Positions 16,270-33,516 of a stretch of 58,174 nt of DNA are shown piece by piece (the stretch's first letter is position 1; the number at the start of each line of letters is the position of its first letter). The notes beneath the pieces were generated by a model that made no database searches, was not told where the DNA came from, and saw only the letters and a list, made by a program, of their open reading frames with translations. The position numbers and the translations under genes are program-made. The stretch spans positions 1-58,174 of the forward strand of contig CAMCYK010000007.1 of NCBI GenBank assembly GCA_945883695.1. The letters are read 5' to 3'. The DNA comes from Akkermansia muciniphila (lineage in GTDB: Bacteria; Verrucomicrobiota; Verrucomicrobiia; Verrucomicrobiales; Akkermansiaceae).

Positions 16270-16950
16270 GTGAAATCCATCCCCGTCGTCATCCTCGCCA
16301 CCGTAACCTTTGTCTTGTTCGGACTCGTCGCGTCGCTCCAAGCCGCCTCGATCCGATTCCTCTGCTTGAACGAGGAGCTCGCTGCCCGCGACCTCGGCGT
16401 TCAGGATACCAAAGGTACTACCAAACTCAAAGATCTCAGCGCCTTGAAACGCTCCGACGCCCATACCTGCGCCACCGGTGACTCGCCGCTCTTGCTGGTT
16501 GCGAGGGACCGCAAAGGCGCCGACGGCAAGTCCGCGTCGGTGGAGATCGCGCTGCCGGCAGGTCTCAAAGCGCCGTTGGTACTGATTCTCCCGGATCCCG
16601 ACCACGCCTCCGGCTTGCGCGCGCTCGCCGTCGATGACAGCGAGACCGGCTTCCCCTGGGGTTCCCTGCGCTTCATCAATATCACGGACCAGCTGCTGGT
16701 GATCCGCTACGAGCAGGAGACCAAACCCTTTCCCGCGTCGCCGGCCGTGGTCGATGTCGCGCTTGCGGGCGAGGCCCGCAACATGGGCGTGCAACTTTCC
16801 AGGGAAGACGATCCGGAAGCGGTGCTCTACTCCGCGGTGTGGGAATACGATCCGGCCGTGAGAAAGCTGGTCTTTGTCCTGCCCGGCAACGACCCGGCGA
16901 CAGCCGCCGTCGACCTCAAGGTCATCCCCGACCAGCGCCCGGCGAAATAA
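16270..16950 (+). CDS. Small exported protein, paralogue of the Verru_Chthon-associated protein at 27055
   Basis: The protein has 226 aa from GTG 16270, chosen because it begins exactly at a signal peptide (VKSIPVVILATVTFVLFGLVASLQA); upstream codons are not protein-like. The mature part matches the protein at 27055-27777 throughout: IRFL-CLNEELAAR, a KRSDA block, LVLILPDP, RFIN followed by a conserved strand, EARN-GVQL and YSAVWEYDPAVRKLVFVLPG. No known catalytic or binding motif is visible. The paralogue is linked to a Verru_Chthon A-like gene, so this copy may assist the same envelope structure. A candidate LacI site at 16204-16219 puts it under the same predicted control. Confidence 0.75.
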   Translation: MKSIPVVILATVTFVLFGLVASLQAASIRFLCLNEELAARDLGVQDTKGTTKLKDLSALKRSDAHTCATGDSPLLLVARDRKGADGKSASVEIALPAGLKAPLVLILPDPDHASGLRALAVDDSETGFPWGSLRFINITDQLLVIRYEQETKPFPASPAVVDVALAGEARNMGVQLSREDDPEAVLYSAVWEYDPAVRKLVFVLPGNDPATAAVDLKVIPDQRPAK

Positions 16951-17104: not shown

Positions 17105-18472
17105 TCAACGGTTTGATGACGCGAGCCGGCGGGCGGCCAGTTCCTCGCGCATGGTCAAGCACAGTCGCTCGTTGAGCCCGTAGAAGGTGAAAAGGGCCGC
17201 GAGAAAGAGCAGCCCGCCGGCGGGGATCAGGCTGTTGAGAAGGAGGATCCCGTGGATCGACCCCGCCGACTGCTCGGCGTTGGCCACGTAGCCGAAATAG
17301 GTGAGCAAGGCACCGGCGAAAGCGGCGCCGATCCCCATCCCCGCCTTCTGCGACGAGGTGGTGGCGGAAAAGATGATCCCGGTGGTGCGGACCTTGAATT
17401 TCCACTCGGCGTAGTCCGCCGTGTCGGCGACCAAGGCCCAGTAGAGCGTCGCGTTGATTCCCGCGAAAATCATGCCGAGGATCTGGAAGGTGAAGACGAG
17501 CGCGGTCTGCTCCGGCTGGATCCAGTAAAAGGGGATCGCGGTCAGCGCGACCAGCACCATGCTTGCGATGAAGGAATACTTCTTGCCGATCGCCCGGACG
17601 GCGAACTTGGTCAGGGTCGCTCCGAAAATCATCGCCAGGCCGCCGACCAGGAAGAAGGTGGCGATCCGGCCGTCGTCCCATTTCAAGTAGCTCTTGAGAT
17701 AGTAGATCCCCGCCGTTCCGCGGACCACGGCGAACGTGATGTTCACGATTCCGGCGACGAACATCATGATCCAGTGGCGGTTCGCCAGCAGGGTTTTGAC
17801 GTCCTCCCGCAATTTGGTTTTCTGCTCGGGCGGCGGCTGGATCCGTTCGCGGGTGGTGTAAAAGGAGATCAGGAAGAAGACCACCGCCACCGCGCTGAAA
17901 AGCATCACGGTGCGCTGGGCTCCGAGCTGTTGGTTGCCGTCCCCCAGCTCTTTGATCAGCAGCAGGAAACTCGAGTTCGCGATGATCCCGCCAATCTGCG
18001 CGAGCACCATCCGGTAGCTGTTGACGCTGGTGCGCTCGAGCGGGTCGTCGGTCATCACCCCGGACAGCGCGCCGTAGGGAATGTTGATCGCGGAATAGAG
18101 CAGCATCAGCAGGTTGTAGGTGGTCCACGCCCAGACCAGCTTGCCCCAGGCGCTGAAGTTGGGGGTGGTGAAGGCCAGCACGAAGACCACCGCGAGGGGC
18201 AGGCAAAGCCACAGGAGATAGGGACGAAACCGCCCCCATTTCGATTTCGTGCGGTCGGCCACCGCACCGACGAAGAAATCCCATACCCCGTCGGTGCAGC
18301 GCGCGACCAACAGCATGGTGCCCGCCGCCGCCGCGGTGATGCCGAAGATGTCCGTGTAGAAGAACATGATGAAGTTCATCATGAGCGCCCACACGAAGTT
18401 GCTGGCCGTGTCGCCCAGGCCGTAGCCGACCTTTTCCTTGATGGAGAGTTTGGTGGTTCCGGCCGGGTTCAT
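17105..18472 (-). CDS. GPH-family (MelB-like) sugar:cation symporter
   Basis: This is a 455-aa MFS protein with twelve hydrophobic segments, starting at ATG 18472. The start EKVGYGLGDTASNFVWALMMNFIMFFYTDIFGI and the DFFVGAVADRTKSKWGRFRPYLLW loop (D-x-x-x-D-R-T-x-x-x-x-G-x-x-R-P-Y) are diagnostic of glycoside-pentoside-hexuronide:cation symporters. The second loop has INIPYGALSGVMTDDPLERT. It should import an oligosaccharide or glycoside into the cytoplasm with a cation. Its ATG overlaps the stop of the 1162-aa upstream gene (ATGA), so the two are one operon. The pairing with a large cytoplasm-like six-hairpin protein suggests uptake followed by intracellular cleavage. Confidence 0.9.
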   Translation of the reverse strand: MNPAGTTKLSIKEKVGYGLGDTASNFVWALMMNFIMFFYTDIFGITAAAAGTMLLVARCTDGVWDFFVGAVADRTKSKWGRFRPYLLWLCLPLAVVFVLAFTTPNFSAWGKLVWAWTTYNLLMLLYSAINIPYGALSGVMTDDPLERTSVNSYRMVLAQIGGIIANSSFLLLIKELGDGNQQLGAQRTVMLFSAVAVVFFLISFYTTRERIQPPPEQKTKLREDVKTLLANRHWIMMFVAGIVNITFAVVRGTAGIYYLKSYLKWDDGRIATFFLVGGLAMIFGATLTKFAVRAIGKKYSFIASMVLVALTAIPFYWIQPEQTALVFTFQILGMIFAGINATLYWALVADTADYAEWKFKVRTTGIIFSATTSSQKAGMGIGAAFAGALLTYFGYVANAEQSAGSIHGILLLNSLIPAGGLLFLAALFTFYGLNERLCLTMREELAARRLASSNR

Positions 18473-21400
18473 GGGAGGGAGTCGGGGATGATGACGGTGA
18501 TGGAACGGAAGAAACCGTCGCGATCGAACAAATGACGGCTTTCGGCTTTGGGCAGGCGGCAACCGTCGATGGCGGTGGATCCCCCGTCGGCGTGCTCGAG
18601 GGTGATCGACGGACGCTCGCCGAGCAAATAGCAAACCGGAACCTGGAACGCGGTGAAGGCGAGGGACGCCGGGCCGAGGTGCCAGGACCGGGCGCGGCCT
18701 TCGAGGTCGATGAACTCGAAAACCTGGGGCGAGGTGAAGAACTCGCGGCGCTCGAGCAGAACCGGCGCGAAGCTGAGGCAGCCGTTTTCGACGCGGATGC
18801 CCAGTTCGCCGGTGCGGGTGAGGATCTCCTCCTTGACCTGGCCGGTCATGCCCGGTTGCTGGGCGCCGCGGCCACGGGGTGAGTGGGAATAGGGATCGGT
18901 GGGAAAGGCGCCGTAGGTCGCGGCGTCCTTGGAGAACCCCAGGCCGTCGCGGACCTCCGAGTAGCGCCGGGCAAGCTGGCGGGTTTCCTCGCCGTCCGGG
19001 TTTTCAAGATGGGCCGTGGCGTGGAGTTCCTGAACAGCGAGCAGGAGTTTGGCCACCATGTGCCAGTAGATGCTGCCCAGTCCCTCGAAGCCGAACATCG
19101 TGGCGCTGCGTCCCGTGAAATACCGGTGACGGAAAACTTCCTCCCACAATTCCAACATGCCCTCGCGCTCCGCCGCGACCGCTTCCCGCCACGCCGGCTC
19201 GGCGGCGCGCTGGTCGAGCCGCTCCCGCAAATCGCGGGCGCTGGTGAAATCGGGATGGAAGCGCGCCCGCTGGCCGCTGTCGGGACGGATCAATTCGCGG
19301 TCGCCCGCGTCGATCAGCGCGGCGAGCCGGGGAACCCTCGCCTTCCAGCCGGCGGGCAGGAGGTTGCGCTCGAGGAAGGGGGTGACCGTCCGGTCGGGGT
19401 AGAGCATGTAACTGTTCTGGTCCTGCCGGTAGAGCGGACCTTGCCGCATCGCCTCCAGCAGGCGGAGCGCTTCAAGCGGCCGGAGGGCACCACTGCTGAG
19501 GGCGGCGACCTGGCCCTCCAGCATCAGGTCGAGACGGTGGACGGACGCCTTTCGACCGCGGATCTCCAGCAGGTTGTAGCTGTGGACCAGGTGGTCGTCG
19601 CGATGGTTCGCCGCCAGGGTGGTGTCGATCGCCGCAAGGGCCGCCGCGAGGAATTCGCGGATCGCGGGACGGTCGACCGCGGAGAAAACCAGCGGCTGCC
19701 GCGCGTACACCGCCTTGCGGTGGTCTTCTCCCGCCCGTCCGAGTTCTTCGGCGATCCCGTAGCGGGCGGCATCGTCCAGCCCGGCGGCCGCGGCCCGGGG
19801 CAGGATCCCGGTCACGCGGGCGAGCAATTCGGCGACCGGCCGCGAGAGGTGGAAGGTGTCGCCGGCGCGGTCGTCGAACAGCGTGCCAAGAAACACCGCG
19901 TAGCGCCGCATGTAACCCACCGTGACGACGGAGAGCCCCCAGCCGGCGAGCGCGTTGTTGGCATCGTTCCATTCGGGGCGCTGGGTGTTGAGCCAGATCC
20001 CGCCGCCGGGAATCAGGTTGGCAAGTTTGACCAGCAAGGGCAGCAGCAGCTTCTCGGCGAGGGAAACGAGGACGACCTCGCCCGCCCCGCCGGCGAGCAG
20101 CTTGGCGTCGCCGCCGAGTTGGAGGGCACGCTCCAGCCGCCGCGCGTGCAGCATCTCATTGAAATCAATCGAATGCTTGGGGTCCGCCAGCAGGTCGTCG
20201 AAGCCGCGGATCTGGTAGGGCACGTCGGCATAGGCGTGGCTTCGCGTGTCAAGGCGGGCGCTCAGCCGGCCGGGATGGAAGCGCTCCTGGCCTTCGAGCA
20301 GGCGGAGCAGGTAGATGATCTGGTGGTCGCCCCAATAGCCGATGTGGCTCCACGGGTCGGTGGCGTCGAAGACCTCCCAGTCGATACCCTCCCGGGTGAT
20401 CCGGTAGGGATTGTAGCCATCCGCGGTGGAGGCGTTGAGAAAGATCGCGATCATCGGCTCGAAGCAGGCCGGATAGTTATAGGCGAGGCTTTCCCAGTTC
20501 TGGAAAATGTCACGCCAGTTCCCCGCGTAGCCGAACAAGGGCCGGCCGTCGCCGTCCTTGGTGTGGATTTCAAAGCGGTTCCACGGCCGGCTGGGGTCGC
20601 CGTGGCGGCGGCTGAAACAGAGCGGCAGGTATTCGCCGGCAAGCCGCGCGAGTTGCGGGTCGTCCGCGGTGGCGGCCAGCTCCGCGAGGTCGGCCAGCGT
20701 GCATGGATCGGGCAAGCCCGCCACCCGGTCCCGGTGCCGGGCCGACACGTCGGCATTCCGGCTCCCGAGGAAGGCGTGGAAATCGCCGCGCGGGAAGCGG
20801 TAGTTGTCATGCAAGGTGCCGCCGCGCATGCAGTTGAAGAGGACATTCGCGAAATGGTGGATGCCCGCCCGCGGGTCGGCCGTCCGCTGGATGGCTCCGG
20901 CCCCGGCGATCCGCCATTTGAGGGCGAGCACGCCGGCGGACCGCTCGTTGGCGACCTCCAACGCGAGCGTTCCCGGCTCGCGCAGCCGCTCGCTCAGCCG
21001 GGACACCGCACCATGGTCGAGGCCGGTGTCGGCGACGGCGAACCATTCCCGGGTGGCATGGCGATCGAGGTCGATCGTGGCGGCCAGCAGGTGGGCACCG
21101 AACACGCCGCGGGCCTCGCATTCGCCCGCGGGTGCCGCGCCGCGACGGAAGTCGTCCACCTGGCGGTCCGACAACAGCAGGGCCGTCGGGTCGAGGCCGA
21201 GCGACCAGGCACAGGACACCCGGAGGGATTCGCAAGGTTCCGCCCGGTCGGTGATGCCGGAGTTGAGGGTGTAGATGCCAAGTCCGGCGACCGCCTCGTG
21301 GCGCATGTAGGCGGCTGCCAGATAACTGTATCTGGAGTAAGTTTCCTGCGCCACCCCGACGGGAAGGATATGTTTCCATCCGTCGAGCATGCGGACGGCG

Positions 21401-21957
21401 CGCGGTTGGCCCCCGCTGTTGTGCAGACGGCAGGCACGGATCAGTCCGAAGCGCTCGCTGGCGCTCAGTTCCCAGCGGAAGGTCAAGCCGAGCGGACCAT
21501 GGATTTCCTCGAAGATGACACTGGTGCCGGCGACATGCTTGTAGAGGTTCCGGGAAATTCCCGGCGCGGGACAATCGCCGCTCCACGGTTCCCAGGTGAC
21601 GCCGTCGCAGATCAGGATGCTGAGCACCCCGCTGGCCCGCGGCTGGTTGAGGATCTTGTCGGCGGTCTGGTAGGGAAAGACCGCGTGGTCGGGATCGACC
21701 CGGCCCGCGGTGAACCCGCCGTTGCTGCCGACGAACAGCCAGAAATCCGAGGCCGACGCCACGCTCATCAGGAACGGCGGCATCCGGTCCACGTCGCGGA
21801 TCCGGAGGTATTCCTCGCCGTCCAACACCACGGGCAGGTCTTCCGGATGATCCGGGTGCGGGGCGGGCGGGTCGATCTCGCCCGATCCGCGCCGTCTGCC
21901 TCCCGCGGAAATCAGGGTCGGGCCGACGGGGTCCGGCAGGACATGAGGTGGTTGCAT
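18469..21957 (-). CDS. 1162-aa uncharacterised protein, six-hairpin glycosidase/phosphorylase-like
   Basis: The start is ATG 21957 (MQPPHVLPDPVGPT); upstream in-frame codons are not protein-like. No signal peptide is visible, so it is probably cytoplasmic. The N-terminal third is beta-rich with a carbohydrate-enzyme look (FRWELSASERFGLIRACRLHN, RMLDGWKHILP). The centre (about 500-560) has NPYRITREGIDWE and a GYWGDHQIIYLLRLLE helix. The C-terminal third (about 940-1000) has MFGFEGLGSIYWHMVAKLL, resembling alpha/alpha toroid phosphorylases and glycosidases such as GH94. I cannot name a CAZy family or assign catalytic acids. It is coupled by ATGA to the GPH symporter, with a candidate LacI operator 171 bp upstream. 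Intracellular degradation of an imported beta-glucan oligosaccharide is an inference. Confidence 0.65.
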   Translation of the reverse strand: MQPPHVLPDPVGPTLISAGGRRRGSGEIDPPAPHPDHPEDLPVVLDGEEYLRIRDVDRMPPFLMSVASASDFWLFVGSNGGFTAGRVDPDHAVFPYQTADKILNQPRASGVLSILICDGVTWEPWSGDCPAPGISRNLYKHVAGTSVIFEEIHGPLGLTFRWELSASERFGLIRACRLHNSGGQPRAVRMLDGWKHILPVGVAQETYSRYSYLAAAYMRHEAVAGLGIYTLNSGITDRAEPCESLRVSCAWSLGLDPTALLLSDRQVDDFRRGAAPAGECEARGVFGAHLLAATIDLDRHATREWFAVADTGLDHGAVSRLSERLREPGTLALEVANERSAGVLALKWRIAGAGAIQRTADPRAGIHHFANVLFNCMRGGTLHDNYRFPRGDFHAFLGSRNADVSARHRDRVAGLPDPCTLADLAELAATADDPQLARLAGEYLPLCFSRRHGDPSRPWNRFEIHTKDGDGRPLFGYAGNWRDIFQNWESLAYNYPACFEPMIAIFLNASTADGYNPYRITREGIDWEVFDATDPWSHIGYWGDHQIIYLLRLLEGQERFHPGRLSARLDTRSHAYADVPYQIRGFDDLLADPKHSIDFNEMLHARRLERALQLGGDAKLLAGGAGEVVLVSLAEKLLLPLLVKLANLIPGGGIWLNTQRPEWNDANNALAGWGLSVVTVGYMRRYAVFLGTLFDDRAGDTFHLSRPVAELLARVTGILPRAAAAGLDDAARYGIAEELGRAGEDHRKAVYARQPLVFSAVDRPAIREFLAAALAAIDTTLAANHRDDHLVHSYNLLEIRGRKASVHRLDLMLEGQVAALSSGALRPLEALRLLEAMRQGPLYRQDQNSYMLYPDRTVTPFLERNLLPAGWKARVPRLAALIDAGDRELIRPDSGQRARFHPDFTSARDLRERLDQRAAEPAWREAVAAEREGMLELWEEVFRHRYFTGRSATMFGFEGLGSIYWHMVAKLLLAVQELHATAHLENPDGEETRQLARRYSEVRDGLGFSKDAATYGAFPTDPYSHSPRGRGAQQPGMTGQVKEEILTRTGELGIRVENGCLSFAPVLLERREFFTSPQVFEFIDLEGRARSWHLGPASLAFTAFQVPVCYLLGERPSITLEHADGGSTAIDGCRLPKAESRHLFDRDGFFRSITVIIPDSLP

Positions 21958-22256
21958 GGGTGGACGGAAGATTGGGGTTGCCGTGGCTTGCGCGGTGGCG
22001 GCGCGGGACTTGGGATTCCTGCCGCCGGGCACCTCCGGCAGGGCGGGACCGGGAACCAGCGGCCCTGCGGAGCGCGGCCGCCGCGTGACCTTCGATACGC
22101 GGCCGCGAAGGGTCCCGCAAGAGAAAATTGCATGATTTTGCAATGGACCTCGGGACCCGCTTCCACCCCACGAAGCTGCGGTGCCGGGGCGGCCGGAGGC
22201 CGGCGATCGCGGCTCCGCTCGGGCGGGCGAGCCGGCAGCCGCGGGTGGTCCGCGGG
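21958..22256. promoter_or_regulatory. Control region of the glycosidase-symporter operon
   Basis: These 299 bp lie between the lacI-type gene stop and the ATG of the 1162-aa protein, all read leftwards. The only AT-rich island in the gap is at 22121-22144 and contains the palindromic operator candidate. The rest is GC-rich with no recognisable gene. Confidence 0.45.
22128..22143. promoter_or_regulatory. Palindromic operator candidate TTGCA-N6-TGCAA
   Basis: TTGCA-TGATTT-TGCAA is a perfect 5+5 palindrome, 16 bp long, the best copy of the motif in the window. It lies upstream of the leftward glycosidase-symporter operon and just past the end of the LacI-family gene. Half-matching sites lie upstream of three further genes in this block. 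Repression of the operon by the neighbouring LacI-family protein is the simplest reading. Confidence 0.6.
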
Positions 22257-23303
22257 CTATTTCCGAACCGGCCCGACGGTCGCCCCGGCGCGCAGCCGGC
22301 AGTCGATCAGGACATGTTGGGCGGAGCCGAAGCGCTTCCGCGCGCGCTCGACCAGGCGCTGGGTTCCGGTCATCCCGATCTCCCGGAAGGGCACCAGGAT
22401 GGTGCTCAACAATGGCGAGCCCGCGGGGGTCTCGATCCCGTCGAAACCGGTGACCGAGACCTCGCCGGGCACCCGGATCCCCCGCTTGGCGAGGCCGCGC
22501 ACCAGATCGTAGGCCTGATGGTCGGCCGCGCAGACCCACGCGGTCACACCTTTGCGGATCCGTTCGGCCGCATAATCGGCGCTGGCCTCGTCATCCGTCT
22601 CGCGGGACGGGAAAACATTGACGATATCCTTGGCCGCGACCGGCAGCCGGAGGCGGACCATCGCTTCCATGAAGGCCGCGTAGCGCCGCAACGACCAGCT
22701 CGCCTCCACCTCGTAGCGCCGCGTGAAGAAGCCGATCCGCCGGTGGCCGTGTTCGACCAGGTGCTCGATCGCCGACGAGATGCCCTTGTAATGATCGACG
22801 TCGACGCAATCGATCCCGGAATGATCGAACTGCTCCACCAGCGAGACCAGCGGCACCCGTGGCGCCAGATGGTCCAGCACCGGGTTGGGGAAAGGATAGA
22901 CCAGCAGCAGGCCGTCCCAGCGGTCGCACAGCTTCTCGACGCGCAGGAAAGCCGGGTCATCCAGGGCGCAGGCCTTGGGGTCGATCAGCTGGACCTCCAC
23001 GTCGGCGCCGTTGAGCAAGGCGCACTCGGTCACCCCGGCGAGGATTTGCTCGCTGGGGTTCTGATAGTCGGTCCGGTTGTGTTCCTCTTCGGCCGAGCAG
23101 ATCAACACCCCGAAAATCTTCCGGCTGTCCTTCTTCTTGCCCGCGCGGGGTTGGCGCATCTGGAGATGAACGTAGCCGAGTTCGGCCGCCAACTGGAAGA
23201 CCCGGGCCCGTGTCACGGGATTGATGCCGGGATGATTGGTGAAGCAACGTGAGACCGTCGCCCGCGAGATTTGCAGGCGCTCGGCGATGAGCTGCTGGTT
23301 CAT
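22257..23303 (-). CDS. LacI-family transcriptional regulator
   Basis: The protein has 348 aa from ATG 23303. The N-terminus MNQQLIAERLQISRATVSRCFTNHPGINP is a LacI helix-turn-helix (the TVSR turn plus the helix after it), followed by a hinge and a Lys/Arg-rich linker (RAGKKKDSRK). The rest is a periplasmic-binding-protein-like effector domain (IFGVLICSAEEE, GLLLVYPFPNP, HRRIGFFTRR, VTAWVCAADHQAY, VSVTGFDG, TTILVPF-like end). Codons further upstream are not protein-like. Its position between two target operons, with TTGCA-N6-TGCAA-type sites on both sides, marks it as the local regulator. The effector is probably a sugar released from the substrate. It is divergent from the Verru_Chthon A-like gene. 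Confidence 0.9.
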   Translation of the reverse strand: MNQQLIAERLQISRATVSRCFTNHPGINPVTRARVFQLAAELGYVHLQMRQPRAGKKKDSRKIFGVLICSAEEEHNRTDYQNPSEQILAGVTECALLNGADVEVQLIDPKACALDDPAFLRVEKLCDRWDGLLLVYPFPNPVLDHLAPRVPLVSLVEQFDHSGIDCVDVDHYKGISSAIEHLVEHGHRRIGFFTRRYEVEASWSLRRYAAFMEAMVRLRLPVAAKDIVNVFPSRETDDEASADYAAERIRKGVTAWVCAADHQAYDLVRGLAKRGIRVPGEVSVTGFDGIETPAGSPLLSTILVPFREIGMTGTQRLVERARKRFGSAQHVLIDCRLRAGATVGPVRK

Positions 23304-23475: not shown

Positions 23476-23500
23476 TTGCACAAAATTGCATAAAATTGCT
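23476..23500. promoter_or_regulatory. Double operator candidate in the lacI/Verru_Chthon divergent gap
   Basis: Three TTGC-type half-sites are spaced every ten bases: TTGCA at 23476, then TTGCA at 23486 and TTGCT at 23496, separated by CAAAAT and TAAAAT. Each neighbouring pair forms a TTGCA-N6-TGCA-type site. The 10-bp phase puts all half-sites on one face of the helix, fitting binding of adjacent dimers. It lies 95 bp before the Verru_Chthon A-like ATG and 172 bp from the lacI start, so it could control both directions. Confidence 0.6.
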
Positions 23501-23594
23501 GGACACCTCCGGCGGGCGGTACAGATTCCGCGGGTAGAAACGGAAGTCCATCGCCGCGACCCAACGCCGCGGGACTTGCACCCGGATCAAACCC

Positions 23595-26500
23595 ATGAAA
23601 CCGAGCATCCGCCACCCGTCCCGAAGCCGGGGCTTCGCACTCGTCATCTCGCTCAGCTTGATGGTTCTCCTTACGGTGCTTTCGGTCGGGTTGCTGACGC
23701 TCGGCACGATCTCGCTGCGCGCGGCGTCCCGCGGCGAAGCCGACGCGAGGGCGCTGGCCAACGCCCGGCTGGCGGTCACACTGGCCATCGGACAACTCCA
23801 GAAGGAAGCGGGCGACGACCGGCGGATCACCGCGGATGCCTCGATCCGCGAGGGTGCCAAGCAGCCGAACTTGCTCGGGATCTGGTCGTCCTGGTCACCG
23901 GGCCTGGCCGCCAAGCCGGATCAAAGCGCGCCCGATTACAACAAGGAGAAGACCGACCGGTTCCGCGGCTGGCTGGTTTCGCAGCCGGTTCCCGCGCTGT
24001 CCGGCGACCGCGCGTGGCCGGAGACCGCGGCCGATCCGAAGTGGCCCCGGCTGTTCTCCGTTTCCCGCGACGGATTCGATCTCGGCGCGGCTCCGGTGCC
24101 GTCCGGGGAAGGGGCCTACGCGTGGGCGATCACGCAAGAGGCGTCGAAAGCGAAGGTCAACGTCGCGGGGCCCGAAGCCGTCGATCCCACCAACGCGCCG
24201 CTGCAGGCGCAGCGCCGGCCCTCGCTGGCGCTCTCCACGGTCCTCCAGCAGCCGCAGGACGGCTGGGATCTGCGCGCCGCGCGCTTGCTCTCGTCCAACC
24301 AGATCCGGCTCGACGCGGCTCTGGCGGGGGATGCCACGGCGGCCGCGGCCGGAAGCTACACGGCCCATTCCCAAGGACTGCTGACCGACGTGGTCAAGGG
24401 CGGGCTCAAGACCGACCTGAATCTCGGTTTTGAAATGAGCGACGCGGACTTCGCCAAGTCCGCGTGGGAGGGTGTTGCCAATCCGTTCCGGTCGGGCGGC
24501 GACCCGGCCGCCCCGGCGTCGCCGGACTCCTACCGGGGTGAGCGGGCGCTGTTCAAGCCGCTGGTGGAGAATCCCATCGTGTCGATCACGACGGACTACT
24601 CGCCGGCCTCCGTCGCCCATCGCTTCTTTGCCGCCGCGGTTCCGACCTTCGACCACCTGCGTTCGTTCTACCGGATCCCTCACCACCTTTACGGCGGTGA
24701 CACCCCGGTGGTCGCCGGGCGCGGGGCGGATCATTCCGCGATCAGGCTGGCGGCGGCACCCGGCGGCACGCTGCCGCCCCCGAGCACCCCGCCGGCCGGC
24801 CTGAAGTCGAGCCTGAGCGTCCGTCCGGTGCTCAACCGCTTGGTCTACCTGCTGAGCGCCACCCTGGGCGGCGACGGCCAGGTCCAGCTCGCCCTCACTC
24901 CGATCATCTCCTTGTGGAATCCCTACAACGTCACGCTCGAGATCGACGGCGCGGTGGCCTATCCATGGATGGACCTGCCGTTCCAGCTGGCGTGGGAATT
25001 CCGGCTCGAATCGGGAACGATCGGACGGCGGGAAGTCAACATGTCGATGATGATGGGCAAGCAGTTCGAAGGCCTGGCCCACGGCCGCTCGGTCAACCCG
25101 TACTTCCTGTGCGAGATGACCGCCAACGGCGATGGCGATCTCAAGAATCCGATCCGCTTCAAGCCGGGCGAAGTCCGGGTCTTCGCGCCCGCCTCGAAGG
25201 TCCCCGTCCAGTTCAACCGGACCGGGAGCAACGCGGAGCGGACCGTCCGCCTGCGGCCGATCGATGACATCTCGCAGATGAACACCAAGGGCGGCCTGGC
25301 GATCCCGATGAAGGAGGGAGTTAAGACCGGCGGCACGCCCCACGGCTTCACTTATGTGGTGAAGCAAACCGACAAGGTGAGTCTTAAAGTCAGGCCGTCG
25401 CAGCAGGGAGCCTACCATTACTTCGTCTCGCTCGAGGATTCCACCCGCATCCGGGACAAATCCGACGACGCCCGCGGCGAGGCGATCTCCGAAGTCCAGA
25501 TGCTCGGTTTCGCCTCGGCGGTGGCGGAAGTCAGCTCGCCCAGCTGGTCCTATTCGGAACTCAACGGCACCTCCCAGCCTTTCGCGGTGATCGAAACCTT
25601 CCATCGCACGGCGCTGCAGAATGTCGGCGGACTGGCGGTCGCCGACCTCATCTACACCACCAATCCGCGGCAGCCGGCGATCAACCACCAGCTCGCCGCC
25701 GGAACCTTCACCGTGGCGCCCCACTATCTTTCCACGCTGCGCTCGGTCTCCTCCTTCGACGGGGCGATCCAGACCACCTTTGACGGCCGGCGGTCCTTCT
25801 GGGGGCCGAACCACAGCGCCTCGGGGGAGGATCAGCTGCCGTTCTTCGAGATTCCGCGCCAGCCGCCGCTGTCGCTCGCGGCCTTGCAGCACGCCGACCT
25901 CTCCTCGTCCACTTTTTCGCCCGCCAACCAGTTCGCCAACAGTTGGGCCTCACCCTATCTCGCCCGCACTAGAACCGGGTCCATCAACACCCGGCACGCC
26001 AGCTCCGGAGTGCCGGTCTATGACACCTCCTATCTCGCCAACGAGGCGCTGTGGGACGGATTTTTCTTCAGCGGGGCCGCGCCCTTGCTCAAGCCCGCCT
26101 CCGGCGGCAGTGCCGCGACCGCCTGGGACGCTCAGATCGCCGCCGTCACCTCGCCGCTTGCCAAGGTGCTCGCCGACTTCGTCGCAGATCCCTCCGGCAA
26201 ACCGCTGGCCAACCCCCGCATGCGGCTCGACAAGCGCGGCCTTGCCGACGAGGCGCTGGTCCAGCGCTTGAGCGAACCCGCCGGCTGCACCCGCATCGCC
26301 GCCCACCTCACGGTCGACGGGGCTTTCAATGTCAACTCGACCGACCTCGACGCGTGGATCGCCCAGCTCGCCGGCCTGCGCGGCGAGTCGTTCACGGTGG
26401 AAGGCGGCAAGCCGCCGCCACCGGACGTCTCGCCGTTCCCGCGCTTCCGCCACCCCACCGGTGACAAGAACAACAACTGGAACGGCTACCGGGCTCTCGA

Positions 26501-27032
26501 CGACGCGGAAATCCGCACCCTCGCCGAAAACCTGGTCAAGGAAGTCCGCCGGCGCGGGCCGTTCCTGTCGCTCGGCGAGTTCGTCAACCGGCGGGTGGAG
26601 GGCGGGGAACTCGGACTCAACGGGGCCATCCAGGCCGCGATCGAGGCCGGCAAGCTCAACGCCCTGGCCAAGCAGGCACCCTTCTCCACCGACAAATACC
26701 CCAGCGAGGCCCGTGAAAACATCATCCCGGATACCGGCGTGGGCATTCCCGGCTTCCTCACCCAGGCGGATGTCCTCCAATCGCTGGCCCCGGTGATCAC
26801 CTGCCGTTCCGACACCTTCACCGTCCGTGGTTATGGTGAAGCGAAGGATGGCGAAGGGAAGGTCATCGCCCGCCGCTGGTGCGAGGCCATCGTGCAGCGG
26901 ACCCCCGGCTTCGTCGATCCGGCCGATCCGGCGGACGCGGCCATCACCTCGGTCTCGCCGGTCAACCAAGCCTTCGGCCGGCGTTATGAAATCGTCTTTT
27001 TCCGGGTGATTCCCGCTGCCGAAATCCGATAA
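23595..27032 (+). CDS. Verru_Chthon cassette protein A-like, type IV pilin-like N-terminus
   Basis: The protein has 1145 aa from ATG 23595. The N-terminus SRSRGFALVISLSLMVLLTVLSVGLLTLGTISLR (about 10-43) is a pilin/pseudopilin-like helix with a G-F junction after basic residues. It is followed by the ARALANARLAVTLAIGQLQKEAG helix typical of the family I know as Verru_Chthon cassette protein A. The remaining thousand residues are a large, mostly extracytoplasmic region with Gly/Pro/Tyr-rich stretches and C-terminal FLSLGEFVNRRV, PGFLTQADVLQSLAPVI and DTFTVRGYGEA blocks, reminiscent of GspK-like minor pseudopilins. Partners B, C and D of the cassette are absent. Instead a small exported protein, GH81 and a mutarotase follow with short or no gaps. 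It is possibly a surface assembly for polysaccharide capture. Confidence 0.75.
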   Translation: MKPSIRHPSRSRGFALVISLSLMVLLTVLSVGLLTLGTISLRAASRGEADARALANARLAVTLAIGQLQKEAGDDRRITADASIREGAKQPNLLGIWSSWSPGLAAKPDQSAPDYNKEKTDRFRGWLVSQPVPALSGDRAWPETAADPKWPRLFSVSRDGFDLGAAPVPSGEGAYAWAITQEASKAKVNVAGPEAVDPTNAPLQAQRRPSLALSTVLQQPQDGWDLRAARLLSSNQIRLDAALAGDATAAAAGSYTAHSQGLLTDVVKGGLKTDLNLGFEMSDADFAKSAWEGVANPFRSGGDPAAPASPDSYRGERALFKPLVENPIVSITTDYSPASVAHRFFAAAVPTFDHLRSFYRIPHHLYGGDTPVVAGRGADHSAIRLAAAPGGTLPPPSTPPAGLKSSLSVRPVLNRLVYLLSATLGGDGQVQLALTPIISLWNPYNVTLEIDGAVAYPWMDLPFQLAWEFRLESGTIGRREVNMSMMMGKQFEGLAHGRSVNPYFLCEMTANGDGDLKNPIRFKPGEVRVFAPASKVPVQFNRTGSNAERTVRLRPIDDISQMNTKGGLAIPMKEGVKTGGTPHGFTYVVKQTDKVSLKVRPSQQGAYHYFVSLEDSTRIRDKSDDARGEAISEVQMLGFASAVAEVSSPSWSYSELNGTSQPFAVIETFHRTALQNVGGLAVADLIYTTNPRQPAINHQLAAGTFTVAPHYLSTLRSVSSFDGAIQTTFDGRRSFWGPNHSASGEDQLPFFEIPRQPPLSLAALQHADLSSSTFSPANQFANSWASPYLARTRTGSINTRHASSGVPVYDTSYLANEALWDGFFFSGAAPLLKPASGGSAATAWDAQIAAVTSPLAKVLADFVADPSGKPLANPRMRLDKRGLADEALVQRLSEPAGCTRIAAHLTVDGAFNVNSTDLDAWIAQLAGLRGESFTVEGGKPPPPDVSPFPRFRHPTGDKNNNWNGYRALDDAEIRTLAENLVKEVRRRGPFLSLGEFVNRRVEGGELGLNGAIQAAIEAGKLNALAKQAPFSTDKYPSEARENIIPDTGVGIPGFLTQADVLQSLAPVITCRSDTFTVRGYGEAKDGEGKVIARRWCEAIVQRTPGFVDPADPADAAITSVSPVNQAFGRRYEIVFFRVIPAAEIR

Positions 27033-27054
27033 TACTTTTCCCCGCTCCCAACCC

Positions 27055-27777
27055 ATGAACCCCAAGCCCCGCCATCCCCTGGTTTTCCTGTTCCTCGCGT
27101 TGCTCTCGCTGCAAGGAACCCTGTTCGCGATCCCGGTCCGTTTCCTGGCGTGGGATGACGCGGTGGCCGCACGCAAGATCGCGATCCAGAACGGCACCAC
27201 GGTTACCCCGGTCGCGGACCTGCACCCGAACAAGCGCTCCGACGCACTCGACGGCGGGGCCGGCGGGCCGCCGCTGCAATTGGTCGCGCTCGACCGCGAC
27301 AGCAAGGACGGCAAGCCGGTGACGATCGAGATCAAACTCGCCGCCGGAATCCAGAAACCGCTGGTCCTGATCCTGCCCGACCCGAAGCACGTGACCGGCC
27401 TGCGGACCTTCGTGATCGAGGACGATGCCACGAACTTCGGCTGGGGCACCATCCGCTTCATCAACGCGACCGGCAAGGCCCTGCTGGTGCGCCATGACAA
27501 GGCGATCAAGAAGCTGCCCGCCGCGTGGACCCCGGTGGACGTCGATCCGGGCGGCGAAGCCCGCAACACCGGCGTCCAGGTGGCGTTGCCGGAGGACACC
27601 AAATCGATCCTCTATTCGGCGGTCTGGGAGCACGATCCCGCGGTCCGCAAGCTGGTCTTCATCATCCCCGGCCGCGAGGTGCGGACCGGGGCCGTCGAGT
27701 TCAAGATCATCCCCGAGGACCGCCGGACCCTGGCCCCGGCCGCTCCGCCGGCAACCGTCGCCCCCACTGCCGAATGA
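27055..27777 (+). CDS. Small exported protein following Verru_Chthon A (paralogue of 16270)
   Basis: The protein has 240 aa with a signal peptide (MNPKPRHPLVFLFLALLSLQGTLFA). It aligns along its whole length with the protein at 16270-16950: IPVRFLAWDDAVAARKIAIQ, KRSDAL, PLVLILPDPKHVTGLR, TIRFINATGKALLV, GGEARNTGVQVALP and YSAVWEHDPAVRKLVFIIPG. It adds a Pro/Ala tail. The function is unknown; it looks like two similar beta-domains. It starts 22 bp after the Verru_Chthon A stop, and its own stop overlaps an in-frame ATG (27774) of the GH81 frame, so these genes form one transcription unit. Confidence 0.75.
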   Translation: MNPKPRHPLVFLFLALLSLQGTLFAIPVRFLAWDDAVAARKIAIQNGTTVTPVADLHPNKRSDALDGGAGGPPLQLVALDRDSKDGKPVTIEIKLAAGIQKPLVLILPDPKHVTGLRTFVIEDDATNFGWGTIRFINATGKALLVRHDKAIKKLPAAWTPVDVDPGGEARNTGVQVALPEDTKSILYSAVWEHDPAVRKLVFIIPGREVRTGAVEFKIIPEDRRTLAPAAPPATVAPTAE

Positions 27778-27848
27778 ACCCCGGCGGCCGCCGGCCCGCA
27801 ACCGCGCCGCGGACCGTCGGATCCGTGCCACCCGATCCCCTTTTCACC

Positions 27849-30134
27849 ATGCAATTCCCACTGCAATCCTCGCCCCAATCCTCCGCCCACCGTTCCCGCG
27901 CGGCGCTCGCCGCCGCCCTGGCAACCCTGATCTCACAAGCGCCCATGGCGACGGCCGCGGAGCCCGCGCCGGAGATCGTGGCGGTCGGAGCCGGAAGTTA
28001 TACCACCCGTTTGCCGGAAGGCTTCAAAGCGCTGCCGGAGCAGATCTACAGGACGGCGGATGTCACGGGTCCGACCATCACCGGCCAGTGGTGGAGTTCG
28101 CTGCTGTGGCAGCAGTTTTCCAGCAACACGTTCGCCCACCCGCTGGCCATGGTGTGCACGCCGGAAGGGCTGGCGATCACCTACCCCGGCGCGGCGATCG
28201 TCGCCAGCGAGGCGGCGATCATGGGCGGCGGCGTCACCCCCGACGGGGATTTCAAGATCAGCCACTCGAAGGCCGAAACCTTCCCTGCCGCCAATTGCGG
28301 GGGATACTCGGATTGGTTCGTCACCGCGTCCTTCGCGGCGGGCGAGTCGACGTTGGACGCCAGCTTCGGGCATGGCAGTCCCTTCGTCTACTGCACGCTC
28401 GGCGGCGGTGATCCGGTGCTGCGCTTCAACGGCGCTCCCCGGATCTGGGCCGGCACCGAAAAGGACGCGGTGCTCGGAGTCACCGCGAAGGGCCACCACT
28501 ACGGCTTGTTCGGCGCGACCGGCACGACCTGGAGCGGACTCGACGGAACGGTGTTCACCAACCAGGCCGGCGGCAAACCCTACTTCGCCATCGCCCTGCT
28601 GCCCGACGACAAGCCGGAAACCTTGGAGCTGTTCAAACGCCACGCCTACAACCATGTGATCGACACCCGCGTCGAGCATCAGGAGAAGGGCGGCCAATTG
28701 ACGACCACCTACCGCTTCAAAACCAAAGCCTGGGAGGGCAGCGAGGCCGGGACGATCTTCGCGCTCTATCCCCACCAGTGGAAATACTCATCCACCAAGC
28801 TCACGGGAAAATCCTACGCCTCGGTGCGCGGCGAGATGAAGCTCGCGGTGGGAACTGGGTTCGTCACTGAAGTGCCGGTCCAGGGAGTGCTTCCGATGTT
28901 TCCCGCGGAAGGAATCACGAACCGGCCCCGGATGCTCGGCCACCTGCGGGCGGAAGCCGCCAAGGAGCGTCCCCCGTTCGCCGACACCTATTGGGAAGGC
29001 AAGCATCTGGGGCGGCTGGCGACGCTCAGCGGCATCGCCGAGGCGGCCGGCGAACCCGAACTCCAGAAAGGATTCATCGACGAGATCAAGCGGCGCCTCG
29101 AAGACTGGTTCACCGCCTCGCCCGGCGAGACCGCCCCCCTGTTCCACTACAACGCGACCTGGGGCACGCTGATCGGAAGCAAGCCGTCCTACGGCAGCGA
29201 CATGCCGCTCAACGACCACCACTTCCACTACGGCTATTTCATCCGGGCGGCGGCGGAAGTGGCGCGGCTCGATCCCGCCTGGGCGAAAAAATGGGAGCCG
29301 ATGGTCATGCTGCTCATCCGCGACATCGCCTCGCCGCGGCGCGACGATCCGATGTTTCCGTTCATCCGCTGCTTCGACAAGTATGCCGGCCATTCGTGGG
29401 CGTCGGGCGACGCGAATTTCGCCGACGGCAACAACCAGGAATCCTCGTCCGAATCGTTGAACGCGTGGTATGGCATGATGCTGTGGGGGGAGGCGACCGC
29501 CAACCGGGAGATCCGCGACACCGGCCTGTTCCTGTTCAACACCGAACGGATCGCGGTCGAGGAATACTGGTTCGATGTCTCCGGCACGAACTTCCCGAAG
29601 GATTTCCCCAACGTGGCGCTCGGCATGGTTTGGGGCGGCAAGGGTGCCTTCGCCACCTGGTTTTCGCCGGACATCGATTGCATCCACGGCATCAACTGGC
29701 TGCCCTTCACCCCGGCCTCGATCTACATGGGCCGCCACCCCGAATACGTGAAGAAGAACCATGCCCGGATCGTCGAGAAGCGGCTCAACGGCAACGACTA
29801 CAACAACGGCTGGGGTGACCTGGTCGTGATGTTCAACGCGCTCGCCGATCCGGCTTCGGCGGCCGCCTACCTGGATGCCACGCCCGATTGCCTGATCGAA
29901 GGGGGCAACACCCGTGCGTTCATGGATCATTGGATCGGAACCCTCCACACGCTGGGGCTCAATGCCGCGGCGGTGACCGCGGACCATCCCTTCTGCAATG
30001 TCTTCGACAAGGGCGGCCGCAAGACCTATGTCGCCTACAACTTCGGAGCGGAACCGCTGGCCGTCGCATTCTCCGACGGCACCAAACTGACCGCCGCGCC
30101 CGGGAAACTCACCGTCCGGAAAGGACAACGCTGA
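27849..30134 (+). CDS. GH81 endo-1,3-beta-glucanase, secreted
   Basis: This enzyme hydrolyses beta-1,3-glucans such as laminarin, callose or curdlan. The start at ATG 27849 (MQFPLQSSPQ) gives a signal peptide with hydrophobic core AALAAALATLISQ. An in-frame ATG at 27774, overlapping the previous stop, would add 25 residues and remains possible. GH81 hallmarks are an N-terminal beta-sandwich (GQWWSSLLWQQFSSNTFAHPLA), LNDHHFHYGYFIRAAA (His/Asp region near residue 456) and the GNNQESSSES motif (about 527-536) that contains the catalytic Glu region. Length 761 aa fits. It sits in the operon with the Verru_Chthon A-like gene under the double operator. This gene anchors the inference that the block handles beta-1,3-glucan. 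Confidence 0.92.
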   Translation: MQFPLQSSPQSSAHRSRAALAAALATLISQAPMATAAEPAPEIVAVGAGSYTTRLPEGFKALPEQIYRTADVTGPTITGQWWSSLLWQQFSSNTFAHPLAMVCTPEGLAITYPGAAIVASEAAIMGGGVTPDGDFKISHSKAETFPAANCGGYSDWFVTASFAAGESTLDASFGHGSPFVYCTLGGGDPVLRFNGAPRIWAGTEKDAVLGVTAKGHHYGLFGATGTTWSGLDGTVFTNQAGGKPYFAIALLPDDKPETLELFKRHAYNHVIDTRVEHQEKGGQLTTTYRFKTKAWEGSEAGTIFALYPHQWKYSSTKLTGKSYASVRGEMKLAVGTGFVTEVPVQGVLPMFPAEGITNRPRMLGHLRAEAAKERPPFADTYWEGKHLGRLATLSGIAEAAGEPELQKGFIDEIKRRLEDWFTASPGETAPLFHYNATWGTLIGSKPSYGSDMPLNDHHFHYGYFIRAAAEVARLDPAWAKKWEPMVMLLIRDIASPRRDDPMFPFIRCFDKYAGHSWASGDANFADGNNQESSSESLNAWYGMMLWGEATANREIRDTGLFLFNTERIAVEEYWFDVSGTNFPKDFPNVALGMVWGGKGAFATWFSPDIDCIHGINWLPFTPASIYMGRHPEYVKKNHARIVEKRLNGNDYNNGWGDLVVMFNALADPASAAAYLDATPDCLIEGGNTRAFMDHWIGTLHTLGLNAAAVTADHPFCNVFDKGGRKTYVAYNFGAEPLAVAFSDGTKLTAAPGKLTVRKGQR

Positions 30135-30138
30135 CCCG

Positions 30139-31059
30139 ATGACGCTTCGCCATTCGCGGAGAATCGTCCAGGGCTTCGCCATCCACTCGCTGGCCAACGA
30201 CCGGGTGGCCGTGTCGATCGCTCCGGAACTCGGCGGGCGGATCGTCTCATTGAAGGACCGCGTCTCCGGCCGCGAGTGGCTCGACGGATGGGCACCGGCC
30301 GGCCGGCGCCGGATCTGGCAACCGCCCGATCCCGCCGACTACGCGACGGGTCCCGGCGCCGGCATCGACGAGTGCCTGCCGACGGTGCTTCCCTGCCGCC
30401 ACCGGGGCAAGACCCTGCCGGATCACGGGGAGTTATGGAACCGCGCCCCGGCGTTCGATCCGGCAGCGGCGAAAGCCGGCGTCTTCGAATGCCGCTGGAG
30501 CCTCCGCTCGCTGCCGCTTGACTTCGAACGCCGGATCTCGCTGGACGGGCAGCGGGTCCGCTTTGAATACCGGATCGTGAACCGGGCGGACCAACCCACC
30601 CCGTTCCTGTGGGCCTGGCATCCGCTGTTCAGTTGGCGGCAGGGTGACGAGATCCGCTTCCCGCGCGCGGTGAAATCGTGTGTCAGCCCCGGCGGCGAAC
30701 CGCTGCCGTGGCCGATCGCCGCCAACGGGGCCGACCTGTCCCGCGCCCGCTTTCCCAAGGGAGCGATCCCCGCCGCGAAGGTGTTCGCCGGTCCCCTGTC
30801 CAAGGGCGCGGCGGAGATCCGTTCGAAGAGGGGCGCGCGGATCTCGATCACCTGGCCCGCGGAGTTCCTCCCGTATGCCGGCATCTGGATCACCCGCGGC
30901 TTCTGGCAGGGACTGCACCATTGGGCGATCGAGCCGACCAACGCGCCGGTCGATCGCCTCGCCGATCTGAATCATCGCGATCCGCGATCCGAATGGATGT
31001 TGATGCCCCGTGAAACGCGCGAATGGACCCTTCTCGTCGGCGTCTTGCCGGCGGTTTGA
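30139..31059 (+). CDS. Galactose mutarotase-like (aldose 1-epimerase superfamily) protein
   Basis: The protein has 306 aa and starts four bases after the GH81 stop, so it is co-transcribed and probably co-translated. The beta-rich fold shows APELGGRIVSLKDRVSGREWL (the opening strands of the mutarotase-like superfamily), GIDECLPTVLPC, a LPDHGELWNR motif, FEYRIVNRADQP and WAWHPLF (a His typical of the active site). It lacks a signal peptide. It may interconvert anomers of the released sugar or bind an oligosaccharide; the exact reaction is not known. Loss of the operon's other genes would leave it without obvious substrate, which supports a role in glucan use. Confidence 0.75.
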   Translation: MTLRHSRRIVQGFAIHSLANDRVAVSIAPELGGRIVSLKDRVSGREWLDGWAPAGRRRIWQPPDPADYATGPGAGIDECLPTVLPCRHRGKTLPDHGELWNRAPAFDPAAAKAGVFECRWSLRSLPLDFERRISLDGQRVRFEYRIVNRADQPTPFLWAWHPLFSWRQGDEIRFPRAVKSCVSPGGEPLPWPIAANGADLSRARFPKGAIPAAKVFAGPLSKGAAEIRSKRGARISITWPAEFLPYAGIWITRGFWQGLHHWAIEPTNAPVDRLADLNHRDPRSEWMLMPRETREWTLLVGVLPAV

Positions 31060-31491: not shown

Positions 31492-33516
31492 ATGAAATCC
31501 GTCTTTAAAAACCTGGCTTTCTGCGCCGTCCTTGGCGCTTCCGGAAGTGCCTTCGCGGCCGTCGTGCCGTTCCCCAACGGGGATTTTGAAACCCCCGGTG
31601 GAGCCAGCTGGGATAAAAACTCCTTTGCCGGCAACCAAGTCATCTCTTTTCCCAGCACCGGAGGAAACACCGGGGGCTACGGAAGCATCGTCAGCAACGA
31701 GCTCGGCGGCTATGCCGTGCTGGTAACCAACGGCGGTCTGCCCTACCCTCTGGCATCCCTCAATCTCGTCGCCGGGAAGACCTATACCTTCTCTTATGAC
31801 ATGATCACCTCCGTCGCGGGGCCGAACAAAGGCGGGATCAAGATCGAGTCGTGGAGCTCAACCGCGGGGATCTCCGATTCCAAGGATCAGCGTGTCACCA
31901 GCGCCTCCACCGGATGGGCGACCTACTCGTATGCTTACACCATCGATCCAGCCGCCACCCACATCAAGGTGGTGCCGCTGTGGACGCCGGGCGAAACGGT
32001 CGGGTTTGACAACGTCCGGGTCGACAACACCCCGATCGTGCCCCCTCCGGTGGTGCCGGTCATTCCCAACTCGGGCTTCGAAATCCCCGGGGGACCCTTC
32101 AATGTCGGCGCCGACTGGGCCTACTTCGCGGGCGGCTTCACCGGCACCCACTTCACCACCGGCGGCAACCCCGGAGGGAACACGGTCATCGACGCGACCG
32201 TGCCGGGCACTTACGGCGTTCTGGTCGCCAAGGGCAACGCCTACTTTTCGCTTGCAGAGCTGGGTCTCACCGCGGGCGGAACTTATATCTTCCAGATGGA
32301 CATGAAGCTTCTTGCCGGCCAGGACCTCGGAGGACTCAAGCTGGAGTTGTCGGGTGCCGACTTCGTGGAGAAGAAACCCACCGCGCAGCAGATCGCGGCG
32401 CTGCCGAATCCGATCACCGAATGGAACACCTACTCGTTCGAATTCACGATCCCCGCGGGATGGACCCAGTTCAAGGTGGTGCCGGTCTGGGGCGTGGCTT
32501 CGCGGGTCGCCTATGACAACGTCAAGATCCTCCCGCCGCCGCCGCTCGCGGCGCAGATCCAAGCGGGCACCACGGTGAGTTGGAACGCGGCCAATCCGCT
32601 GAATTCCTACCAACCCCAGGAATCGCCGACGGGACTTCCCGGATCGTTCACGAATCTGGGACCGAAGATCAGCGGCAACGCGGTCACGACCGTCTTCGCC
32701 GCCGTGCCGGCGCCGTTCTACCAAGTGCTGGAGACCACTCCGGATCTCTTCGCCAACGCGGTGCTCAACCCCGGCTTCGAGACTTCGGCCGTTTCGTCCG
32801 CGCCGGCCGACAACTGGAGCATTCCGGTCCCGGCGAATAACCCGAATGCCGTGATGACGGTCGTCGGCAGCTACCCCGAGGTGGCGCTTGCCCCGTTTGC
32901 CGGCACCAAGATGCTTGTCATCGACTCCACCACTCCGGCGACAGGTCCGGTGACGCCTCCCGACACCAACGTCCGCTCCGACTCGTGGACGGTCACCGGA
33001 AACACGGTTTACACCCTCTCGTTCCAAGCAGCCCATCTGTTCAAGATCGGCGGTGCCAATCCGCAGTTCTATTTCCAATTCTTCGGATCCGACCCGATCT
33101 TCGGCGACCCCGTCTTCCTGGGTGACTCCTTCACGAGCTTCCAATCCCTTGGCGGAAGTTGGACGAAGGTCGAGAGGACCTTCACCACCCCGGCCGCCGC
33201 GACGTCGATGACAATCGGCTTCATCCAGGCGATGGGTGCCGGCAACGGCTGGCGCTGGGTGACCTTGATCGACGACGTGTCGCTGCTGACCCCGTCCACT
33301 CCCGGCGTCACCACGGTGATCCCCGCCACCCCGGCGGCGGGCGTCCAGATCAGCTGGAACTCGAAGTCCGGCAAGACCTACCAGGTGAAATCTTCCATCG
33401 GCTTGCTCGACTGGGAAAATTTCGGAACCGCCGCGGCCGGCACCGGTGGGACGATGTCGGTGAGCGCCCCGCTCACTCCTCCCAACAAGTTCTACCGGGT
33501 CGAGGAAACCCCTTAA
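31492..33516 (+). CDS. Secreted protein with three carbohydrate-binding-like domains
   Basis: The protein has 674 aa with a signal peptide ending SGSAFA. Two related beta-sandwich units at about 24-180 (PFPNGDFETPGGASW through GFDNVRVD) and 185-350 (IPNSGFEIPGGPFN through AYDNVKI) have the CBM4/9-like GFE...F/Y-DN-V frame. A third, more distant one lies at about 425-600 (LNPGFETS through LIDDVSLL). The C-terminal module (VQISWNSKSGKTYQVKSSIGLLDW through FYRVEETP) is a common tail of verrucomicrobial exported proteins. No catalytic domain is visible. With a LacI-type site upstream and GH81 nearby, it is probably a glucan-binding surface or extracellular protein. A strong terminator follows. 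Confidence 0.75.
   Translation: MKSVFKNLAFCAVLGASGSAFAAVVPFPNGDFETPGGASWDKNSFAGNQVISFPSTGGNTGGYGSIVSNELGGYAVLVTNGGLPYPLASLNLVAGKTYTFSYDMITSVAGPNKGGIKIESWSSTAGISDSKDQRVTSASTGWATYSYAYTIDPAATHIKVVPLWTPGETVGFDNVRVDNTPIVPPPVVPVIPNSGFEIPGGPFNVGADWAYFAGGFTGTHFTTGGNPGGNTVIDATVPGTYGVLVAKGNAYFSLAELGLTAGGTYIFQMDMKLLAGQDLGGLKLELSGADFVEKKPTAQQIAALPNPITEWNTYSFEFTIPAGWTQFKVVPVWGVASRVAYDNVKILPPPPLAAQIQAGTTVSWNAANPLNSYQPQESPTGLPGSFTNLGPKISGNAVTTVFAAVPAPFYQVLETTPDLFANAVLNPGFETSAVSSAPADNWSIPVPANNPNAVMTVVGSYPEVALAPFAGTKMLVIDSTTPATGPVTPPDTNVRSDSWTVTGNTVYTLSFQAAHLFKIGGANPQFYFQFFGSDPIFGDPVFLGDSFTSFQSLGGSWTKVERTFTTPAAATSMTIGFIQAMGAGNGWRWVTLIDDVSLLTPSTPGVTTVIPATPAAGVQISWNSKSGKTYQVKSSIGLLDWENFGTAAAGTGGTMSVSAPLTPPNKFYRVEETP

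Follow-up and report, generated by a model that had tools for sequence, protein, structure and literature searches.

A giant prepilin-type protein and its exported partner as candidates for a substrate-specific hook in a β-1,3-glucan utilisation locus of Akkermansia muciniphila

Analysis of a 58,174-nucleotide contig of Akkermansia muciniphila (CAMCYK010000007.1, in its whole length called the window) points to two adjacent genes, here named A and S, as a candidate substrate-specific hook for β-1,3-glucan at the cell surface. The pair lies in a gene cluster which, judged by its content (a GPH-family symporter, GH149, a LacI-family regulator, A, S, GH81, a mutarotase-like protein, and a CBM4_9 protein), is a β-1,3-glucan utilisation locus, and it shares with the glucanase genes of related loci an upstream operator-like palindrome. 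In Verrucomicrobiota, the uptake of large polysaccharides has been linked to a type IV-like pilus; the question is how one machine could serve many glycans. With a pseudopilin-type pair whose operator and gene order connect it to a single polymer, that question becomes directly testable, and the pair offers a starting point for work on an expanded giant-protein family that is unnamed in the family libraries searched.

The features of the locus are listed in Table 1. The original prediction had described a unit of four genes at 23476-31059, and both the positions of the genes and the gaps between them were confirmed; the same set of genes was obtained with a gene caller based on codon usage and trained on the genes of the window itself. 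A and S are separated by 22 bp, and S and GH81 either overlap in an ATGA (GH81 start at 27774) or are separated by 71 bp (start at 27849). The identity of the secreted GH81 is certain, and the pilin-like N-terminal helix of the 1145-aa protein A does carry a prepilin-type leader. For the mutarotase-like gene the position and the 4-bp gap to GH81 hold, but its PF01263 score just misses the cut-off; a mutarotase-like gene directly follows GH81 in several related loci, too. The genes identified in the window's glucan locus include none of the SusC/SusD type, and a scan of the four-gene unit for sigma-70 promoters gave no match. Elsewhere in the window, two very large secreted proteins are encoded at positions 10021-13971 and 44989-49530, one with Ig-like HYDIN/ASH-type repeats and one with DUF5018 and PA14 domains.

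Table 1. Features of the β-1,3-glucan locus in the window
Feature	Coordinates	Strand	Evidence or remark
S2, second S-family exported protein, without an A	16270..16950	+	47% identity to S; adjoins symporter
GPH-family sugar:cation symporter	17105..18472	-	TIGR00792 364.5 bits (cut-off 231); PF13347
GH149 β-1,3-glucan phosphorylase	18469..21903 (start uncertain, 21903 or 21957)	-	NF058639 1314 bits (cut-off 1150)
Operator-like palindrome TTGCATGATTTTGCAA, 5′ of GH149	22128..22143	.	TTGCA-N6-TGCAA with 0 mismatches
LacI-family regulator	22257..23303	-	PF00356 and PF13377
Operator-like site TTGCACAAAATTGCAT and overlapping second copy, 5′ of A	23476..23501	.	1 and 2 mismatches; 103 and 93 bp before the A start
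A, giant prepilin-type GspK/PilX-like protein, 1145 aa	23595..27032	+	leader MKPSIRHPSRSRG↓FALV
S, exported β-rich partner of A, 240 aa	27055..27777	+	S family; signal-peptide helix; model pLDDT 82.4
GH81 endo-β-1,3-glucanase with signal peptide	27849..30134 (alternative start 27774)	+	PF17652 228.8 bits (cut-off 25.6)
Aldose-1-epimerase (mutarotase)-like protein	30139..31059	+	PF01263 24.6 bits (cut-off 27)
Secreted CBM4_9 protein	31492..33516	+	PF02018 50.1 bits; frequent in related loci

Protein A had initially been assigned to the Verru_Chthon A family (TIGR02600). This label could not be upheld. The TIGR02600 profile scored 25.2 bits against A, far below the cut-off of 332.3 bits, and matched residues 13-75 only, i.e., the N-terminal helix; no protein of the whole genome exceeded the cut-off. 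Profile-profile comparison gave a probability of 95.7% for residues 9-205 and detected nothing beyond about residue 205. Genes for pilin-like B, C, and D proteins, the usual companions of Verru_Chthon A, were indeed absent among the window genes around A, as originally predicted, but the glycan genes do not take their place, the standard partner of the A family being S. Twenty genomes were tested for true TIGR02600 proteins, and these were present in G064 and in four genomes from another family of the order, where copy numbers ranged from a few to about 20. Pilin-type neighbours were clear at at least five (L261, L262, L263, L265, L269) of the eleven TIGR02600 loci read, gene calling being poor at some of the remaining ones. 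Verru_Chthon A and A resemble each other in being giant prepilin-type proteins with many copies per genome and homology over roughly the first 200 residues, whereas they differ in their partners, B/C/D pilins in the one case and S in the other. At L261 to L265, which belong to other genomes, large secreted repeat-type proteins adjoin the TIGR02600 genes, and several A-S pairs of the genome studied here adjoin large secreted PATR-repeat proteins in a similar arrangement. Two loci of this genome (L049, 4582-10921, and L071, 6263-11992) hold cassettes in which pilin-like genes precede genes for another giant A-like protein and for a small exported one; their matches to Verru_Chthon B, C, and D are weak and all below cut-off, and in this genome they possibly correspond to the Verru_Chthon cassette.

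The leaders of GspK and PilX proteins lack Glu5. This residue is also absent from the leader of A (G↓FALVI), and G↓FALV-like leaders were found in nearly all its relatives. As weak matches to GspK, PilX_N, and helix-hairpin-helix profiles recur across the members of the A family in addition, we describe A as giant GspK/PilX-like. Assignment to GspK itself was rejected: NF037980 gave 17.7 bits (cut-off 130), and a single GspK of E. coli aligned over the N-terminal helix only. In contrast to GspK/T2SSK proteins, which have about 330 residues, A is 1145 residues long, lies outside any gsp operon, and is paired with S; the likeness to GspK/T2SSK and PilX consists of the leader and of weak profile matches in the N-terminal helix. 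By these sequence features, A is placed in neither GspK nor PilX but in a separate family of giant GspK/PilX-like proteins. An AlphaFold model of A, calculated from an alignment of ten sequences, had a pLDDT of 32. Searches of PDB sequences with the A and S profiles returned no credible match, domain and profile searches detected no carbohydrate-binding domain in A or S, and a plasmid search with A as the query gave no match.

The A family is strongly expanded and widespread. The 6.3-Mb genome contains about 30 A paralogues, and the family was found in 65 of 289 genomes at E ≤ 1e-20, which covers much of the phylum. An iterated search yielded 51 S-family members in the loci read. S lies directly 3′ of A in 21 of the 31 A copies of at least 600 aa in this genome, mostly with a gap of 5 to 55 bp. 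The other ten copies end at a contig edge (four), precede another A fragment (one), or precede another gene (five), and in two of the last five an S-family gene is located elsewhere nearby. The usual partner of A is therefore S and not a set of B, C, and D proteins. At L043 (210-11225) two tandem A-S pairs were seen with two other genes between them. The fairly confident structural model of S is β-rich, and the best fold matches were the two-Ig-domain ectodomains of PepT1 and PepT2, with TM scores of at most about 0.56, which indicate a fold class only; according to the model, S probably consists of two Ig-like domains.

The neighbours of the A paralogues in the same genome are mixed and include secreted PATR-repeat proteins, DUF1501/PSD1 genes, sulfatases, and housekeeping genes; GH1 and GH43 genes were found beside A in single cases each. 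In a related MAG (L100), whose A protein is 67% identical, the order GPH-GH149-LacI is found divergent from A-S-S2, and the S2 protein of this glucan locus is the one most similar to S2 of the window. The 968-aa gene that follows A-S-S2 in L100 was considered as a glucanase, which was rejected as it encodes a di-haem oxidoreductase. GH149 and GH81 were also searched for independently, which yielded about 46 loci in the 195 genomes of the family that were covered. The A-S pair was present inside the GH149/GH81 cluster in the window, L100, L125 (G001), L195 (G061), and L237 (G064), the last three with the gene orders GH81-[gene]-A-S-GH149-GPH and GH81-A-S; L277 (G211) shows the order A-S-CBM-like-GH16, and in L101 a GH5-type gene is located upstream of A. 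In L277, the genes A-S-CBM-GH16 are followed on the same strand by a prepilin-type gene with an N_methyl motif (positions 1590-2333), so that a pilin gene lies within a glucanase cluster. In a tree of A proteins, the copies from glucan loci formed two clades (support 93 and 98) with copies from other contexts between them. Linkage to glucan genes thus extends beyond this genome: leaving chance neighbours aside, it was seen in at least five genomes, and it involves two separate clades and several gene orders. The expectation that TIGR02600-type genes would co-occur with glucanase genes was borne out for two A clades with β-1,3-glucan genes and failed for most paralogues, which have unrelated neighbours. 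The linkage is not general for the A family but is real for the subfamily of the window. As A-S is missing from about 40 of the 46 or so GH149/GH81 loci, it is not required there.

We also asked what proximity alone would give. A chance test counting all A copies that lie 10 kb or less from a glucan locus was not significant, and at the density of A in this genome the chance that some copy falls within 20 kb is about 10%, so that raw proximity carries no significance. The window-like S genes behaved differently by a rough estimate: 4 of 21 A-linked copies were in glucan loci compared to about 0.11 expected, and allowing for two independent events only, P was about 0.006, again as a rough figure.

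Further evidence came from palindromes in the intergenic gaps, which suggested the motif TTGCA-N6-TGCAA. Allowing one mismatch, its density was 0.086 per kb in glucan loci and 0.010 to 0.014 per kb in control loci, part of the glucan-locus sequence having served to notice the motif. Within 350 bp upstream, it was found for GH149 in 20 of 30 loci, for GH81 in 20 of 32, and for CBM4_9 in 9 of 18, but for neither GPH (0 of 33) nor the mutarotase genes (0 of 7), both of which are mostly internal to operons. Four of the five A copies in GH149/GH81 loci are preceded by the motif, with at most one mismatch in the window (103 bp before A), L125 (46 bp), and L237 (120 bp) and with two mismatches in L195 (44 bp); the sites in the last three loci lie outside the sequences that suggested the motif. 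L100 contains two sites 5′ of GH149 and none 5′ of A. Upstream of about 50 other A genes, no site with at most one mismatch was found (Fisher P about 3e-4 for 52 other A genes, among them a duplicate and a copy that lacks upstream sequence). In its stricter form, the motif matched the whole genome once, at position 22128 in the window, and the site in front of A starts exactly at 23476, the left boundary given in the original prediction. The LacI regulator encoded in the cluster would be the natural binder of this palindrome. Because an operator-like site precedes A just as it precedes GH149, GH81, and CBM genes and was found, at up to one mismatch, before none of the approximately 50 other A genes, A-S very probably belongs to the β-1,3-glucan regulon.

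The likeliest role of A-S, which we propose with moderate confidence, would be that of a substrate-specific minor-pseudopilin head which captures glucan on shared type IV filament machinery. According to this proposal, A-S is a two-gene module that was recruited into a LacI-controlled β-1,3-glucan utilisation locus. In the presence of glucan, the repressor would jointly release A-S and the genes for GH149, GH81, and the CBM protein; A would be processed and loaded as a GspK/PilX-like minor pseudopilin of the tip type onto the shared type II/IV filament machinery of the cell, and its large extracellular part, together with S, would bind the polymer at the outer surface. GH81 would then cut the polymer, the GPH symporter would import the oligosaccharides, and GH149 would phosphorolyse them, while the approximately 30 A-S paralogues would represent interchangeable heads for other surfaces or substrates. 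A type II/IV secretion ATPase was looked for elsewhere in the genome, as the original prediction had suggested, and PF00437 ATPases were found together with platform proteins, a secretin, and a GspG-like pseudopilin. The proposal is based on the prepilin leader, the recurrent A-S pair, its location in glucan loci in two clades and several gene orders, the operator, this machinery, and the lack of a SusC/SusD-type gene among those identified in the locus. Counted against it were the many glucan loci without A-S, the A gene of L100 without an operator, the lack of a detectable binding domain, the low pLDDT of the A model, the A-S pairs beside non-glycan genes such as PEPCK, and the fact that binding of LacI to the operator is assumed.

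Several known systems offer partial precedents. A type IV-like pilus glycan system is conserved in Akkermansiaceae, and substrate-specific proteins have been proposed to tune its attachment to glycans (PMC13174399). This MUL2 pilus resembles our proposal in being filament machinery with a proposed role in glycan attachment, but the four MUL2 genes do not include A-S, which is attached to the regulon of one substrate. In Verruconatronum alginivorum, a gene for a PulG-like pseudopilin with 67 homologues lies inside an alginate-induced cluster, and another pseudopilin was among the induced proteins in single-replicate proteomes (PMC13274419). The large paralogous set with one gene in a glycan-induced cluster is reminiscent of A; these proteins were described as PulG-like, however, and the likeness drawn here is one of genomic setting. 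PilA-PilC of Streptococcus sanguinis contains a glycan-binding, lectin-bearing modular minor pilin (PMC9934059) and is a two-protein complex, as A-S would be. Both of its proteins are pilins, whereas S is a signal-peptide protein and not a pilin, and no lectin domain was recognised in A. With the SusD/SGBP proteins of Bacteroidota, which are unrelated to A-S and have no SusC/SusD counterpart among the identified genes of the locus, the likeness lies solely in the proposed role of a substrate-specific surface protein co-regulated with the matching glycanases. As a tentative extension, A-S pairs might form a large set of interchangeable capture heads for one type IV-like filament, each under the matching glycan regulon, i.e., a pilin-based counterpart of SusD/SGBP in Verrucomicrobiota with the window pair as the β-1,3-glucan head.

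A different function would follow if A were a cargo-specific, GspK-like minor pseudopilin of the type II secretion system; A-S would then not bind glucan but assist in the export of GH81 or of the CBM protein. GspK belongs to the named families most similar to A, the genome encodes a type II-like ATPase, a platform protein, and GspG-like proteins, and the genes for GH81 and the CBM protein, both of which are exported, lie next to A-S. We nevertheless regard this as unlikely in view of the absence of A-S from most GH81/CBM loci, the presence of some pairs beside genes for cytoplasmic enzymes (PEPCK) or without any exported enzyme, and the score of A below the GspK cut-off. Next in order, and likewise improbable, is a role of A-S as variable surface adhesins that attach to particles or cells; they would be expressed along with glucan use, glucan being a mark of algal or fungal surfaces, and would not handle glucan itself. 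The number of paralogues with their mixed neighbours and the several pairs beside PATR-repeat proteins would fit such adhesins, but the shared operator and the linkage to β-1,3-glucan genes, which recurs in two separate clades, argue against them. That A-S is a multi-copy element which landed in the locus and is read from its promoters by chance, without a role in glucan use, agrees with its high copy number, the calculated chance proximity, and its conserved placement beside unrelated genes, PEPCK among them, but is very improbable given the two clades, the several gene orders, the operator directly 5′ of A, and the excess of window-like S genes in glucan loci.

Other A-S neighbourhoods were noted in the loci read. 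In three genomes (L115, L126, L127), A-S is located beside a gene for GTP-type PEPCK, confirmed by Pfam in L126 only, and at L270 (4007-5869, G064) a true TIGR02600 gene adjoins a PEPCK-like gene. The PEPCK-adjacent A subclades, like those beside GH13 and GH95, are related to the glucan ones and are a warning against readings based on adjacency only. At L281 (607-5912), A-S adjoins a GH95 gene, and the lineage of this A is sister to the second of the two clades from glucan loci. In three related genomes (L114, L117, L123), A-S is followed by a gene for a GH13-type α-amylase, which was confirmed by Pfam in L117 only; the A proteins concerned form a well-supported subclade, possibly an α-glucan counterpart of the glucan-locus pairs.
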